Source: Thiobacillus sp. (GTDB lineage: Bacteria; Pseudomonadota; Gammaproteobacteria; Burkholderiales; Thiobacillaceae). Taken from it: DNA of 64,000 nucleotides. Positions 25,087 to 30,256 of this stretch are shown here, piece after piece. How positions within the stretch are numbered: position 1 is the first letter of the stretch; every line of letters starts with the position of its first letter. Where the stretch lies: positions 1 through 64,000 of the forward strand of contig NZ_JADMKC010000004.1 of assembly GCF_018780105.1 (NCBI RefSeq). The letters run 5' to 3'. Position numbers and translations under genes: made by a program. Below the pieces are notes generated by a model. It ran no database searches, was not told the origin of the DNA, and was given only the letters and a program-made list of their open reading frames with translations.

Positions 25087-27867
25087 CTACTCGATCAAAT
25101 CCTGTAAGGCGGGGTGTTTGCGAACCGGCTTGTCGAGGTAGTAGCCCTGCACCAGGTCGACGCCGAACTGGCGCAGCAGCGACAGGGTTTTGCCGTCGCC
25201 GACGTATTCCGCCACCACCGATTTGCCCAAGCCAAGCGCAACGCTGACCATGGCTTGTACGAAGACCTGATTGTCGGGGTCGCTGATGAGGTCGCGAATG
25301 AACATGCCGTCGATCTTGATGGTGTCGACTTTCAGGTGCTTGAGGTAGGCAAACGAGGCAAAGCCGACGCCGAAATCGTCGAGGCTGATGCCGCAGCCCA
25401 TTTGCCGCAGGGCCTCGATCATGCGCTGCGCGTCGTGCAGGTCGGACACCGCGGCGGTTTCCGTGATCTCGACGATCAGGCGGCTGGGATTGACGCTGCG
25501 GGTGCGCAGGCTTTCGCTGATGTACTGCGGCAGCGAAGGCTCGGACAGCGAGCGTCCGGACAGGTTGACAGCGATGGGCGGGATGCCCGGATTGTTCGCC
25601 AGCATCTGCACCACCGTGCCGATCACCCAGCGGTCGATGTCGAGAATGCGGCCGCTCTTTTCGGCCAGCTGGATGAAATGCGCCGGCATGATGAGCTGGT
25701 CCGGGTTGCGCTCGTCCACCATGCGGATAAGCGCTTCCAGGTGCGACAGGGCGCGGTCGTCGGTGCGGTAGACACCCTGGAAATGGAGCTCGAACAGGTT
25801 TTTTTCGAGCGCGTTGCTGATGCGTTCGCTCCACGACAGGCGGTTGCGCATTTCGGTGTCCGCCTCGAGGTCGGCGCGGAATACGCGCCAGGTGTTTTTG
25901 CCGGCCTGCTTGGCCTGGTACATCGCAATGTCGGCGCGCGCCACCAACTCGTCGGCGTCAGCGGCGTGTGTCGGGTAATAGGCGATACCGAGGCTGGCAG
26001 TGACCCGCAGGTTGCGGCCTTCAAAGCGGAAGGGAATTTGCGAAACGGCATGGATCACGCGGTCTGCCAGCGCTTCGGCTTCGTTGCCCTGCGCCGCGGG
26101 CAGCAGCACTGCGAATTCGTCGCCGCCGAGGCGTGCCAGCACTTCGTTGCGCCGGATCAGTGCGCTGACCTCGCCCGCCACCCGGATCAGCAGGGCGTCG
26201 CCGGCACGATGACCGTAGGTGTCGTTGATGGTCTTGAATTCGTCGAGGTCGAAGAACATCACCGCGCACGGAATGAAATGGCGGTCCGTCTCCAGCATGG
26301 TGCGGGTCAGCTCCTGCTGGAAACGGTGGCGATTGTAGAGCCCGGTCAGCGCGTCGCGCTCGGCCAGATAGACCAGTTGTTCTGCGGTCTGGCGTTCGCG
26401 GGTGATGTCTTCGTACACCCACAGGTGGCCGATGAAATGGCCGTCGCGATCGCGCACCGGATAGTCGAGTTCGGTAATGACGCGGCCGTCGGTCATTGCG
26501 ATTTCGAAGCTGTCGGATATCTCGCGGGTTTCCAGCACGGACAGCAGATGGTTCGAAAAGTGGTCGGGGCGTGCCAGCGCCGAGTTCGATTTGGCGAGCG
26601 CGTCGTGCACCGGCAGACCGATCAGTTCGATGCTTTCGTCGATCATCCAGGTGTGGTTGAACGCCGGGTTGTGATACACCACGCGGCCATCGGCGGCGAC
26701 GAACAGGATGCCCAGATTCATCGCCGACAGCAGCGACACCAGGCGCGCGCGCTCCTGGTCGATTTCTTCCAGATACTTGCGCTGCAGGGTTTCCGCCATG
26801 CGCAGCTCATTGAGCGCATGGCGCAGGTCGGCCTCGGTTGCCTTGATGTCGTCGATGCTGTGGATGCTGGCACGCAAGCCTTGATACACGTGGTTGCCAT
26901 CGTGGATCGGCTGCCAGTTCGCCATTGCCCAGAAATGGCCGCCGTCCTTGCGGCAGATGCGGAAGGTATAGCCCTGCCCGGCCGAGCCACGCAGCGACTG
27001 GCGCATCTGGAATTCGGCGGCGGCGCGGTCTTCCGGATGGATGATGTCCGAGGGAAAGCTTGCCAGCGCCATGCATTCCTCGACGCTGAAGCCCAACATG
27101 CGCTCGACCGATGGGTTGATCCACAGCAGTTTGCCGTTGGGCGCCAGCCAGAATTCGATGTCGTGGGTGTAGTCGGCGATGGCATGGAAGCGTGCCTCGT
27201 TTTCACGCGCCCGCTCGACGTTGACGCGAACCGATTCGGCCATGCTGTTGAAGGTGGCGATCAGCTGGCCGATTTCGTCGCCCCCTTCGCCTGCCAGCTT
27301 GATGTTGAGGTCGCCCTGTGCCATTTGCTTGCTGGCGCGGGTCAGCAAGGTAAAGCGGCGGATCACCCAGCTGGAACTCAGGGCGAGCAGCAAGCTGGTC
27401 AGCAAAAGGGCGAGCGCGGCGATGATCAGGCTTTGCTGGATATAGCGGGCGCGCGCCTCCTCAATGAACCTGCCCGACAACACCAGGATGGCTTCGCCGT
27501 AGCGCTGGCCGGCCAGTTCAATCGGGATCTGTCGCCGAAAATCTGCGTCGGCGTCGTCGGCGCCGACCTGGTGCACGATGCGGTTGCGGCTGTCGCGCAC
27601 CTCGATCATTTTCAGCCCGTTGCTATCGAGCAGGGTTTCAATGATGTCGCGGGTGCTGGCGTCGTCCTGCTGCGACAGCGGTGCCTGCAGTGCAACGCTC
27701 AGCATTTTGGCCAATTCGGTGACGCGTTGTTCACCCTGTTGCTGCAGTTCGCGGTTGGTGGACTGCATGCCGTTGCCGATCAGGAAGGCGAGCATGATGC
27801 CTTCTACTGCCAGTGCGGCAAAGGTCAGCTTGTAGCGCAGGGAGAGTTGATCCAGCCAGCTTTTCAT
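25087..27867 (-). CDS. Membrane PAS-PAS-GGDEF-EAL protein (c-di-GMP turnover)
   Basis: 926 residues: membrane helix (about 11-31), periplasmic loop (about 32-140), second helix (about 142-166), HAMP, two PAS domains (about 225-345 and 375-490), GGDEF domain with intact RLGGDEFAVLL (cyclase) but no RxxD product-inhibition site, and EAL domain (about 670-920). The EAL domain keeps EAL, VNLSG, EITE, DDFGVGF and KIDG residues but has AEYVGD in place of AEGVE, so phosphodiesterase activity is less certain. Its ATG overlaps the stop of the PhnD-like gene, which probably feeds it a periplasmic signal. Confidence 0.93.
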   Translation of the reverse strand: MKSWLDQLSLRYKLTFAALAVEGIMLAFLIGNGMQSTNRELQQQGEQRVTELAKMLSVALQAPLSQQDDASTRDIIETLLDSNGLKMIEVRDSRNRIVHQVGADDADADFRRQIPIELAGQRYGEAILVLSGRFIEEARARYIQQSLIIAALALLLTSLLLALSSSWVIRRFTLLTRASKQMAQGDLNIKLAGEGGDEIGQLIATFNSMAESVRVNVERARENEARFHAIADYTHDIEFWLAPNGKLLWINPSVERMLGFSVEECMALASFPSDIIHPEDRAAAEFQMRQSLRGSAGQGYTFRICRKDGGHFWAMANWQPIHDGNHVYQGLRASIHSIDDIKATEADLRHALNELRMAETLQRKYLEEIDQERARLVSLLSAMNLGILFVAADGRVVYHNPAFNHTWMIDESIELIGLPVHDALAKSNSALARPDHFSNHLLSVLETREISDSFEIAMTDGRVITELDYPVRDRDGHFIGHLWVYEDITRERQTAEQLVYLAERDALTGLYNRHRFQQELTRTMLETDRHFIPCAVMFFDLDEFKTINDTYGHRAGDALLIRVAGEVSALIRRNEVLARLGGDEFAVLLPAAQGNEAEALADRVIHAVSQIPFRFEGRNLRVTASLGIAYYPTHAADADELVARADIAMYQAKQAGKNTWRVFRADLEADTEMRNRLSWSERISNALEKNLFELHFQGVYRTDDRALSHLEALIRMVDERNPDQLIMPAHFIQLAEKSGRILDIDRWVIGTVVQMLANNPGIPPIAVNLSGRSLSEPSLPQYISESLRTRSVNPSRLIVEITETAAVSDLHDAQRMIEALRQMGCGISLDDFGVGFASFAYLKHLKVDTIKIDGMFIRDLISDPDNQVFVQAMVSVALGLGKSVVAEYVGDGKTLSLLRQFGVDLVQGYYLDKPVRKHPALQDLIE

Positions 27868-28757
27868 TGCGCGCCCTGCAGCATTTTCTGGGTCTGCAAT
27901 GCGTAGGGACGGAATGCATTCAGTTCGTTGCCGTTGAGCGGGCTGAAGCCGCCGAAGCCGCCTTTTTTCAGGAAGGCCTGGCCTTCGGCCGTGGCCGCAA
28001 ATGCCAGCAGGCCTTTGCGGATGGCTTGCACGTCAGCCTCGCGGATGCGCGGATGGGTCAGATAGGTCAGGCTGGATAACGGGGGGGTTTCCAGCAGAAC
28101 GTGCAATTGGCGTCGCACTTCGGGTGGGAACAGCAAGAAGGGAAGCTGCCCCACCATGGCCGCATCTGCGCGGCCCTTGACGACCTGCATGGCGGCGTTG
28201 ACGTGCGTGTCTGCATTGAGTGTGCGGAAGTCGCTGCCGCTGTTGAGCCCGTTTTCGGCCAGCTCGGCCTGCAAGGCCAGCACGATTACGGCCAGGGGGT
28301 CGGGAATGGCAATGGTGCGGCCGCGCAGCGCGTCCACTTCGCGGTAAGACGAACTGGATTTGACGACGAGCAGGCCGCGTACCGGTTCGGCGTATTTGAA
28401 CAGGGGACGATAGCCCGCATCCTGGCGTGCCAGCCAGGCAAAGTGGGGGGCGGTGAGCAGCAGGTCGTATTCGCCCTGACGCGTGCGATCGACAAAGGAT
28501 TTGAAATTGGGTGCGCTATAGATTTCGACGCGTCGCTGCAGGGTTTTTTCCAGCGCGTTCGCCAGCGGACGATAGGTCTCGACGATCTGCTTGGCAGTGG
28601 TATTGGGGAATATTCCCAATACCAGCGGCGGAGCTTCGGCCGCCCAGACTGGGCGCAGGGCGAACAGGCCGAACAGCAGCCCGAGGACGCACAGTGCGAT
28701 GCGGCGCGCGGAGTGGGCTGGGCCTGTACATAGAAAATGCTGGCTTGCTGGAATCAT
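27864..28757 (-). CDS. PhnD-like periplasmic binding protein
   Basis: 297 residues from the ATG at 28757, which has GGAG six bases upstream; a longer frame to 28856 reads through a mobile element and is rejected. Signal peptide RIALCVLGLLFGLFALRPVWA, then the PhnD family fold (LVLGIFPNTTAKQIVETYRP). The family binds phosphate, phosphite or phosphonate for ABC import, but no permease or ATPase is near. The ATGA overlap with the GGDEF-EAL gene suggests it is a sensory binding protein for that receptor. Confidence 0.85.
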   Translation of the reverse strand: MIPASQHFLCTGPAHSARRIALCVLGLLFGLFALRPVWAAEAPPLVLGIFPNTTAKQIVETYRPLANALEKTLQRRVEIYSAPNFKSFVDRTRQGEYDLLLTAPHFAWLARQDAGYRPLFKYAEPVRGLLVVKSSSSYREVDALRGRTIAIPDPLAVIVLALQAELAENGLNSGSDFRTLNADTHVNAAMQVVKGRADAAMVGQLPFLLFPPEVRRQLHVLLETPPLSSLTYLTHPRIREADVQAIRKGLLAFAATAEGQAFLKKGGFGGFSPLNGNELNAFRPYALQTQKMLQGAQ

Positions 28758-28780
28758 CGCAGGCTCCGGGTGATTCATAT

Positions 28781-28945
28781 TAGTGGCCTGCTTTCGAAAT
28801 ACTGGAACATGAAACGGCGTCTTTTTCCGCATGGCGGCGTTGCTCGTCGTTGCCATAGAGCCAGCTATGTCGCCTCCTCGCGCCTTGCCCTGCGAAAAAA
28901 TCCATCCGTTTCATTTTGTCCCCCTATTTCGAAAGCGGACCACTA
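28781..28945. mobile_element. MITE-like element, 165 bp, with 21-bp terminal inverted repeats
   Basis: The ends 28781-28801 and 28925-28945 are inverted repeats matching at 19 of 21 positions (TAGTGG..GCTTTCGAAATA). Similarity between the two halves continues inward for about 40 more bases with small gaps (for example TGAAACGG in each half). Both ends carry TA, as with TA-targeting IS630/mariner-type elements and Neisseria Correia repeats. It has no reading frame for a transposase. The right tip supplies the argA stop codon; the left tip lies 23 bp before the PhnD-like start. Confidence 0.8.
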
Positions 28946-30256
28946 GATAGCCTTTTCAAGTACTTTCGAGCGGCGTTTGTAGTTGTACAAGGCCTGCTTG
29001 CCATGCGGCAACTGGTCGGGGCTGCTGTCGATAAAGCCGCGTTCTTCGAACCACTGCTCGGTGCGGGTGGTCAGCACGAACAGCCGTTTGAAGCCGGCCT
29101 TCTTGCCGCGTTGCTCGGCTCCGGCCAGCAACAGGTCGCCAAAGCCGCGTCCGCGAAACTCGGCAGAGACCGCCAGACAGGCGAGTTCGGCGGCCAGTTC
29201 TTCGGGAAACGGATAAAGCGCGGCGCAGCCTGCGATGACGCCGTCGGATTCAAGCACCAGAAAGCGGTCGATTTCCATTTCCAGCCGTTCGCGCGAGCGG
29301 CGGACCAGAATGCCTTCGCGCTCCAGTGGTTCGATCAGGCCGAGAATGCCGCCGACATCGTCGATGGTGGCCGCGCGCAGGGTTTCCAGCGGCGCCGGCG
29401 TGATGAGTGTGCCAACGCCCTCGCGGGTGAACAGTTCGGACAACAGGGCGCCGTCGCGGTGGCGGCTGATAAGGTGGGCGCGTTTGACGCCGCCGGTGCA
29501 GGCGGTGATCGCGCAGGGCAGGTAATAGCTGACGTCTTCCGGTAGCTTGCGCGACTTGTCCAGCACCTGCCGCGCCTCGTTGACGGTGAGGGTGTTGTGG
29601 ATGGTGCGCGCCTTGTCGGGTACGCCTTCGGTGTCCATCAGGAAAATCAGCTTGTCGGCGGCCAGTTCCACCGCCGCCTGGGTGGCGACGTCTTCCAGGC
29701 TCAGGTTGAAAATCTCGCCCGTGGGGGAATAGCCGATCGGTGACAGCAGCACGATGTCGTGCTGGTCGAGCCGTCTGCGGATTGCGGCGGCATCGATTTT
29801 GCGGACTTCGCCGGTATGCAGCAGGTCGACGCCATCGCGTATCCCGAGCGGCCGCGCGGTGACGAAATTGCCCGAGGCGACGCGGATGCTTGCGCCCGCC
29901 ATCGGCGTGTTGGCGAGTCCCAGCGACAGCAGCGCTTCGATTTCGACCCGCACCGTGCCGGCCGCTTCCTTGACGCAGGCCAGCGCAGCGTCGTCGGTGA
30001 CGCGCAAGCCTTCGACGTAGCGGATCGCGGCGCCGTTTTCGTTCAGCCGCGCTTCCACCTGGGGCCGCACGCCATGAATCAGCACCAGGCGCACACCCAG
30101 GCTGTTCAACAGGTTGACGTCATGCGCCAGCTGCACGAAATCGCCGTCGGCCACCAGTTCGCCGCCGAATGCAATAACGAAAGTTTTGCCGCGAAAACCG
30201 TGGATGTAGGGCGCGGCGGAGCGAAACCAGTGAACGAAATCAGCGGTGTCTTTCAA
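28943..30256 (-). CDS. argA: Amino-acid N-acetyltransferase ArgA
   Basis: 437 residues. N-acetylglutamate synthase, first step of arginine synthesis. N-terminal amino-acid-kinase-like regulatory domain (FVIAFGGELVADGDF; VRLVLIHGVRPQVE) and C-terminal GNAT domain (about 290-430, AVSAEFRGRGFGDLLL acetyl-CoA site). The start is TTG at 30256, fitting the usual N-terminus. The TAG stop is formed by the tip of the MITE-like element, so the last residues may differ from the ancestral protein. Confidence 0.94.
   Translation of the reverse strand: MKDTADFVHWFRSAAPYIHGFRGKTFVIAFGGELVADGDFVQLAHDVNLLNSLGVRLVLIHGVRPQVEARLNENGAAIRYVEGLRVTDDAALACVKEAAGTVRVEIEALLSLGLANTPMAGASIRVASGNFVTARPLGIRDGVDLLHTGEVRKIDAAAIRRRLDQHDIVLLSPIGYSPTGEIFNLSLEDVATQAAVELAADKLIFLMDTEGVPDKARTIHNTLTVNEARQVLDKSRKLPEDVSYYLPCAITACTGGVKRAHLISRHRDGALLSELFTREGVGTLITPAPLETLRAATIDDVGGILGLIEPLEREGILVRRSRERLEMEIDRFLVLESDGVIAGCAALYPFPEELAAELACLAVSAEFRGRGFGDLLLAGAEQRGKKAGFKRLFVLTTRTEQWFEERGFIDSSPDQLPHGKQALYNYKRRSKVLEKAI

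Follow-up and report, generated by a model that had tools for sequence, protein, structure and literature searches.

A TA-flanked MITE with a conserved hairpin core at the stop codon of argA in Thiobacillus

REP elements are dispersed chromosomal hairpins with conserved unpaired features. The Correia elements (NEMIS) of Neisseria are described as being about 107 or 155 bp long, with terminal inverted repeats (TIRs), TA ends and a target duplication, and their transcripts as folding into long stem loops (PMC2229807). In the same account, RUP of Streptococcus pneumoniae is a small element with TA ends whose movement in trans is ascribed to IS630-Spn1. For E. coli IS5, a 4-bp target duplication of the form C(A/T)A(G/A) is given (PMC11677980).

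The window, i.e. the whole 64,000-nucleotide stretch of Thiobacillus sp. DNA that was analysed, contains a short, non-coding, TIR-bounded element of 165 bp at 28781-28945 (both TA copies counted in). A preliminary description had called this segment MITE-like, and its tips, dispersed copies and empty sites in relatives identified it as a real MITE. The target TA was present at both ends, as described (left copy 28781-28782, a single TA at the empty site of relative G025, locus L201; right copy 28944-28945, placed from the sequence and the same comparison). By sequence, copies and empty sites, the element proper spans 28783-28943, with G as first and C as last base. The left TIR including TA (28781-28801, plus strand, TAGTGGCCTGCTTTCGAAATA) and the right TIR including TA (28925-28945, minus strand, reverse-complemented TAGTGGTCCGCTTTCGAAATA) have 21 bases each and agree at 19 of 21 positions, the figure previously reported; a repeat finder joined 29 nt per arm at 83% identity. 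RNA folding of either strand yielded a single long hairpin over the element, with a stability against 200 shuffles of z = -6.55 (plus strand) and -9.42 (minus strand).

The element is located between two minus-strand genes. Upstream lies argA (28943-30256, amino-acid kinase plus GNAT; assigned by frame and domain search), and downstream a gene for a PhnD-like substrate-binding protein (27864-28757 from its conserved ATG; assigned by frame, relatives and domain search). The right tip had been said to form the TAG stop of argA, and frame and relatives' gene ends placed this codon at 28943-28945 (minus strand), composed of the element base C/G and the target TA. The stop falls at the tip because target TA plus the element's first G reads TAG, from either side.

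For the own genome, BLAST gave 11 matches, in line with the expectation of further copies. These correspond to eight elements, since some matches were pieces of one copy and one was the element against its own reverse strand: six of the window kind (contigs C51, C29, C19, C37, C14 and C17) and two of a related second kind, which has different ends and the same core. A small insert splits or lengthens three of the six window-kind copies. The copies on C37, C14 and C17 (L004, L005 and L006) contain a REP-like palindrome, about GTGCCCAGGCCGACAGGCCGTCGGGTAT, at different points of the stem, which brings element length to 194 or 224 bases. In same-genus relatives, matches were present in 29 of 35 genomes, some of them weak or core-only, and overall in 33 of 60 genomes, own genome counted. 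Second-kind elements of Thiobacillus (L008, L010, L037, L039) have ends like ATCCTTGATTCCTCGGTTGA, which vary between copies yet remain complementary, and the same core as the window kind. A second small repeat, CCGTGGTTGTAAAGCCGATAAATCGGCAACAACCACGCTCT-like, was seen within or beside the core in L033 (near 1580-1636), in L031, and upstream of the core in L039. The largest number of tip matches in 12 named genomes searched was found in Sulfuriferula multivorans Bin2_2 (G628, locus L041; 44 in 2.7 Mb). Phages, E. coli and viral contigs gave no element match, and a plasmid search gave one Burkholderia record with 41% of the query covered. The element had not been recognised as a named family, and none was found under any name: core and tip letter strings were not found in print by full-text search (subscription papers and insertion-sequence databases being outside its scope), and among the papers listed on MITEs and stop-codon insertion nothing on point was recognised regarding the stop-codon habit of such MITEs.

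Empty sites were present in relatives for all six window-kind copies. The argA end was located in 53 of 56 genus genomes, and 30 loci (own plus 29 relatives) were compared over the 70 bases downstream of the stop; the element was absent from this interval in 29 of 29 relatives. The junction between argA and the PhnD-like gene was recognisable in five of them (G025, G027, G033, G019, G018). Of these, the closest is G025 (95% identical). Its sequence is ATC TAG TG ATGAATCACCC, compared with ATC TA, element, TA ATATGAATCACCC in the window; element aside, about two bases of the junction differ. The argA insertion is therefore derived, and the end residue of ArgA is unchanged. The earlier suggestion that the element altered the end of argA is thus not borne out, the last ArgA residue being the same as in empty-site G025. 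Nor is this an intergenic sequence conserved at the argA/phnD junction in all relatives, as other copies exist and relatives lack the element at this junction.

The flanks of the remaining five copies were joined into one query and searched for continuous element-free matches. Such matches were obtained for all five: for C29, C19 and C14 in G025, for C17 in G027, and for C37 in G068, G022 and G063. The C37 site in G032 and G002 is interrupted by other sequence. A single TA was found at the empty junction of argA, of C17 and of one C37 relative. The remaining empty junctions have CA, TG, AA, GA or a gap in place of TA, so these sites were altered since or before insertion and the TA duplication is clean at few sites. 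Among 109 insertions, the target tetramers were CTAG (67), CTAA (13), TTAG (11), TTAA (6) and others (12), i.e. YTAR in 97 of 109. The window element occupies the TA within a CTAG-like target.

Four of the six window-kind copies have a tip that forms the stop of a frame ending at the same codon in relatives. The relatives' stops are TAG for argA, where the tip also gives TAG (G025), TGA for the C19 frame, which has no Pfam domain (G025), TAG for the C17 gene (G027), and TGA, TAA and TGA in three relatives for the ribose-phosphate pyrophosphokinase gene on C37. For a wider census, element ends were sought in the collected loci, TAG being needed on at least one tip and frames being counted if they had 150 or more codons. 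Of 113 elements found, 109 had clear tips, some of them possibly with misplaced ends, and four were dropped for weak tips or odd length. Before alike flanks were removed, the tip-TAG frame was present in 60 of 185 flanks, versus 22 and 13 for the other frames; 83 insertions had both flanks long enough (alike flanks kept), of which 47 had a frame of this kind ending at a tip, seven on both sides. Removal of alike flanks (three elements) left 106 elements, 81 with both flanks. In these 81 separate insertions (162 flanks), tip-frame ends numbered 52 against 19 and 12 (p = 4e-8). A stricter set, in which both tips had TAG, any base but A next to it and a G after that base, comprised 77 elements, 55 with both flanks, and gave 38 versus 15 and 9 of 110 flanks, with a gene end in 33 of 55 insertions; it agrees with the main census despite possibly misplaced ends there. 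Control counts by frame were 76, 61 and 37 of 446 flanks for ordinary CTAG sites and 1250, 1207 and 743 of 6063 flanks for random TA sites. Ordinary CTAG sites thus have a slight tip-frame lean, far below that of element insertions.

From 43 tip-ending frames (L040-L154 and L230 onward; 60 such frames over all loci), 20 were drawn at random for Pfam analysis. A domain was present in 16 of 20, and in six the domain model ends at most nine residues from the tip (SCFA_trans, HATPase_c, GTP_cyclohydroI, Exo_endo_phos, RuvA_C, tRNA_U5-meth_tr). Many tip-ending frames are thus native gene ends. Stop-codon siting, a point absent from the preliminary description, is common in this element family. The excess over ordinary CTAG sites may come from loss of gene-breaking insertions rather than from active targeting. 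At L012:1501-1665, open frames of 408 and 439 codons terminate at the two tips, an arrangement that looks like two convergent genes with one common CTAG before insertion.

On the PhnD side, the distance of 23 bp from the left tip to the start, as noted before, fits the ATG at 28757, which has a counterpart in all five relatives whose junction is recognisable. An alternative in-frame ATG is located at 28778, 2 bp from the TA. Change of the phnD promoter, likewise proposed, is unproven: the interval 28700-29000 contains no sigma-70-like promoter and no terminator-like site, the element no consensus promoter or terminator, and the 23 bases before ATG 28757 are kept, the counterparts in five relatives indicating that the bases directly before it are intact. 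Loss of a phnD ribosome site, suggested by GAGAAGG before the upper ATG in G025, was considered and rejected, as ATG 28757 keeps its own upstream bases. The insertion puts the PhnD ATG 163 bases further from argA, and altered argA-phnD coupling through this added distance is possible. The PhnD frame is open into the element (28779-28856, minus strand) up to an ATG at 28856; on paper, judged from the reading frame, an element-coded N-terminal extension of PhnD would be possible.

Deep inside the tips the element carries a conserved hairpin core, which the preliminary description did not mention. It spans 28813-28913 (minus strand), as supported by covariation and by a covariance model, R1, which gave it 106.5 bits and was built from 26 sequences, the window copy among them. 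Its signature consists of CAAGGCGC on the 5' side (28880-28887, minus strand) and GCAACGC on the 3' side (28837-28843, minus strand). A core pattern scan of the genome collection, in which the exact core motif was required, yielded at least 115 stretches; motif conservation in L040-L154 is partly by construction, the exact motif having been demanded. Some stretches of the scan are chance matches in genes, L043, L050, L056, L058, L061 and L091 being examples. Among the matches listed, the core occurs in Thiobacillus, Sulfuriferula, Gallionellaceae, Nitrosospira, Polaromonas, Cupriavidus and Herbaspirillum, and also in a Massilia, Salinicola, Kushneria, Lysobacterales, Tepidiphilus and Sedimenticola; the core-bearing elements of these records have differing tips.

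For covariation analysis, alignment A1 comprised 26 of 31 representatives; omitted were L032 and L168, which have an insert next to the core, as well as L069 and two of the three units from L153. In A1, 88.3% of cells were paired, versus 70.7% after shuffling and 30-51% with slid partners, and 17 of 24 pairs were changed on both sides. The core middle has GANGA opposite GAN'GA, and N pairs with N' in 56 of 57 representatives (G-C 52, C-G 2, T-A 1, G-T 1), a count from which small-insert copies were meant to be omitted and in which some remained. This pattern suggests tandem G.A pairs flanking a standard pair. In L023, C replaces both A beside the stem, and the two G.A pairs become G-C and C-G.

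With R1, matches were obtained in 72 of 276 class genomes and 60 of 216 genera (E up to 1e-4); 14 candidates were scored per genome, and copy counts are lower bounds. Alignment A2, fitted to the model, comprised 46 R1 matches from 36 chosen loci. Here 85.9% of cells were paired (31-44% slid, 56.6% shuffled), the covariation score was 0.71 versus 0.18, and two of 28 pairs were invariant. Of the four G.A positions, two were standard pairs in about half of the rows and two were non-standard in 36 and 40 of 44, so the G.A feature is partly kept and partly replaced. At 12 of 36 loci, two R1 matches lie on opposite strands, i.e. two facing hairpins per element. Elements with TAGGGCCTGTT ends and two opposite-strand cores were seen at L255:1501-1712, L250:1501-1711 and L252:1391-1601. 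In Nitrosospira sp. NpAV (L153:4281-4994) the core is repeated 7.5 times in tandem, with a unit length of 95 bases. Rfam 15, searched with 11 loci at E up to 1, returned only a tRNA and one sub-threshold frameshift-element match.

An IS630-like transposase with the same ends, anticipated in the preliminary description, was not found at the genus loci inspected. The own genome gave no match to DDE_3 (IS630) or DUF4096 (IS5-type) at E up to 1e-8. DDE_3 was matched in 15 of 56 genus genomes; the ends visible at 25 DDE_3 loci, several of which end at contig ends, differ from the window's, as do those visible at seven IS5-type loci (E up to 1e-8; some contig-cut). Tip pairs at insertion-sequence (IS) distance were absent for both tip types among the listed places of 37 genomes and of 12 named genomes, and for the first tip type among the matches listed for 300 order genomes; tips were listed at MITE distance only. 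The genome G458, from the same class and consisting of one contig, has core-bearing MITEs that are about 270 bp long and have tip TAGGGCCTGTTAACACT. It also has five elements of 811-812 bp, whose tip TAGGGCGTGTTAACACT differs from the MITE tip by one base. Genes were read in one 812-bp element and code for DUF4096 and DDE_Tnp_1 proteins (IS5-type), a combination that we take to belong to the IS427 group. The near-common tips tie the element class to an IS5-type transposase in G458. From this we infer an IS5-type motor for the window element as well, although G458 is distant and its tip is a different one.

The window element is very probably a non-autonomous DNA transposon (MITE) that was moved in trans into TA and whose silent stop-codon insertions were kept, in keeping with the observed dispersal, empty sites, end TAs, stop-codon enrichment, same gene end in relatives and covarying core. 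A DDE transposase supplied in trans would act on the TIRs and paste the element into TA, mostly in CTAG or YTAR, so that each end is bordered by TA. Where the TA hit lies in a TAA or TAG stop, the stop would be rebuilt as TAG by the element, with its G first and C at the far end; such insertions would spare the upstream protein and be retained, and those within genes would be lost. The enrichment would accordingly stem from selection, not active targeting, and the core would serve the element, not a host gene. The transposase was most likely IS5/IS427-like, with IS630 next, and the window element probably has no resident motor in its own genome and is a passenger there. Against this explanation stand several findings: the searches made returned no transposase with the window's own tips, the sole IS tie is to a distant genome with a different tip, E. 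coli IS5 duplicates 4 bp, yet only TA is common to both ends here, and three empty sites have CA, TG and GA at the junction, so that duplication is cleanly read at few sites.

Movement of a Correia-like MITE by an IS630/Tc1-type transposase, as first supposed, is a possibility that we consider rather unlikely. The TA ends and the CTAG context would fit, as IS630 itself prefers CTAG. A further point in its favour is that the TA-ended RUP is ascribed to IS630-Spn1 in PMC2229807; the missing DDE_3 in the own genome and the differing ends visible around genus DDE_3 genes speak against it, as does the IS5-type nature of the only IS whose tip type matches in the element class. Alternatively, the hairpin itself might be mobilised by an enzyme that reads the folded single strand or a cruciform, as for REP or IS200/IS605, the TIRs then needing only to pair. 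Arms that covary over their full length around a constant CAAGGC/AACG signature, and one core with many tips, would agree with this; conserved tips within each group, the tip-matched IS5-type IS in G458 and the fixed TA target make it improbable.

The strong covariation and the non-standard yet conserved pairs would be consistent with a core that is maintained for a host gene, as a regulatory RNA or as a messenger-stabilising hairpin. Relative to the gene ended at the tip, however, the core strand was the same in 18 cases and opposite in 19, which speaks against a core role in that gene's message, and host RNA function was rejected for this lack of orientation bias. With no consensus terminator or promoter, and absence from the relatives' orthologous sites, such a function appears very unlikely. 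Ordinary intergenic sequence with a chance palindrome is favoured by the short length and nothing more; copies, empty sites and covariation oppose it, the own-genome copies and the empty argA site already refute it, and its probability is negligible.

For the MITE moved in trans, covarying arms deep inside the tips exceed the needs of a plain MITE. We tentatively propose, while rating it below an even chance, that the core hairpin is what really unites a superfamily of TA-inserting mini-transposons spread over the class, and that it is kept while tips diverge or are exchanged for different transposases. Recognised as folded DNA, it would act as a mobility module that can be reused, with settling in stop codons since the tips rebuild the stop. 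The findings provide a rule for harmless settling, in that TA within a stop codon plus a G-first tip is silent for the upstream protein, and a hairpin family that has no Rfam match and occurs in 72 of 276 sampled class genomes, about one in four. Both the part that conserved hairpins play in MITEs and the way in which MITEs change their ends thereby become directly testable.

In kind, the window element belongs to the MITEs and comes closest to Correia, RUP and similar elements with TA ends. The Correia-like size and layout given in the preliminary description hold, with 165 bp including TA against about 107 or 155 bp; judged by the published description and not by sequence, Correia/NEMIS elements share size, TIRs, TA ends, duplication and stem loops, whereas the element class described here has a longer conserved core hairpin with CAAGGC/AACG, is spread over the class with many types of tip and habitually sits in stop codons. 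RUP, as portrayed in PMC2229807, is likewise a small TA-ended element, with its movement in trans ascribed to an IS; in contrast, no IS630 partner was found here, and the only sign of a partner is IS5-type with a different tip. The likeness to the IS5 family (IS427-like, DUF4096 plus DDE_Tnp_1) lies in the tip of the 812-bp G458 IS, which is near that of a core-bearing MITE, but the window element encodes no such protein and its tips match no IS ends seen. The E. coli IS5 target as given in PMC11677980 is near YTAR, with only TA common to both ends here. REP elements resemble the window element as hairpins and differ from it in that the latter has long TIRs, TA ends and stop-codon sites.
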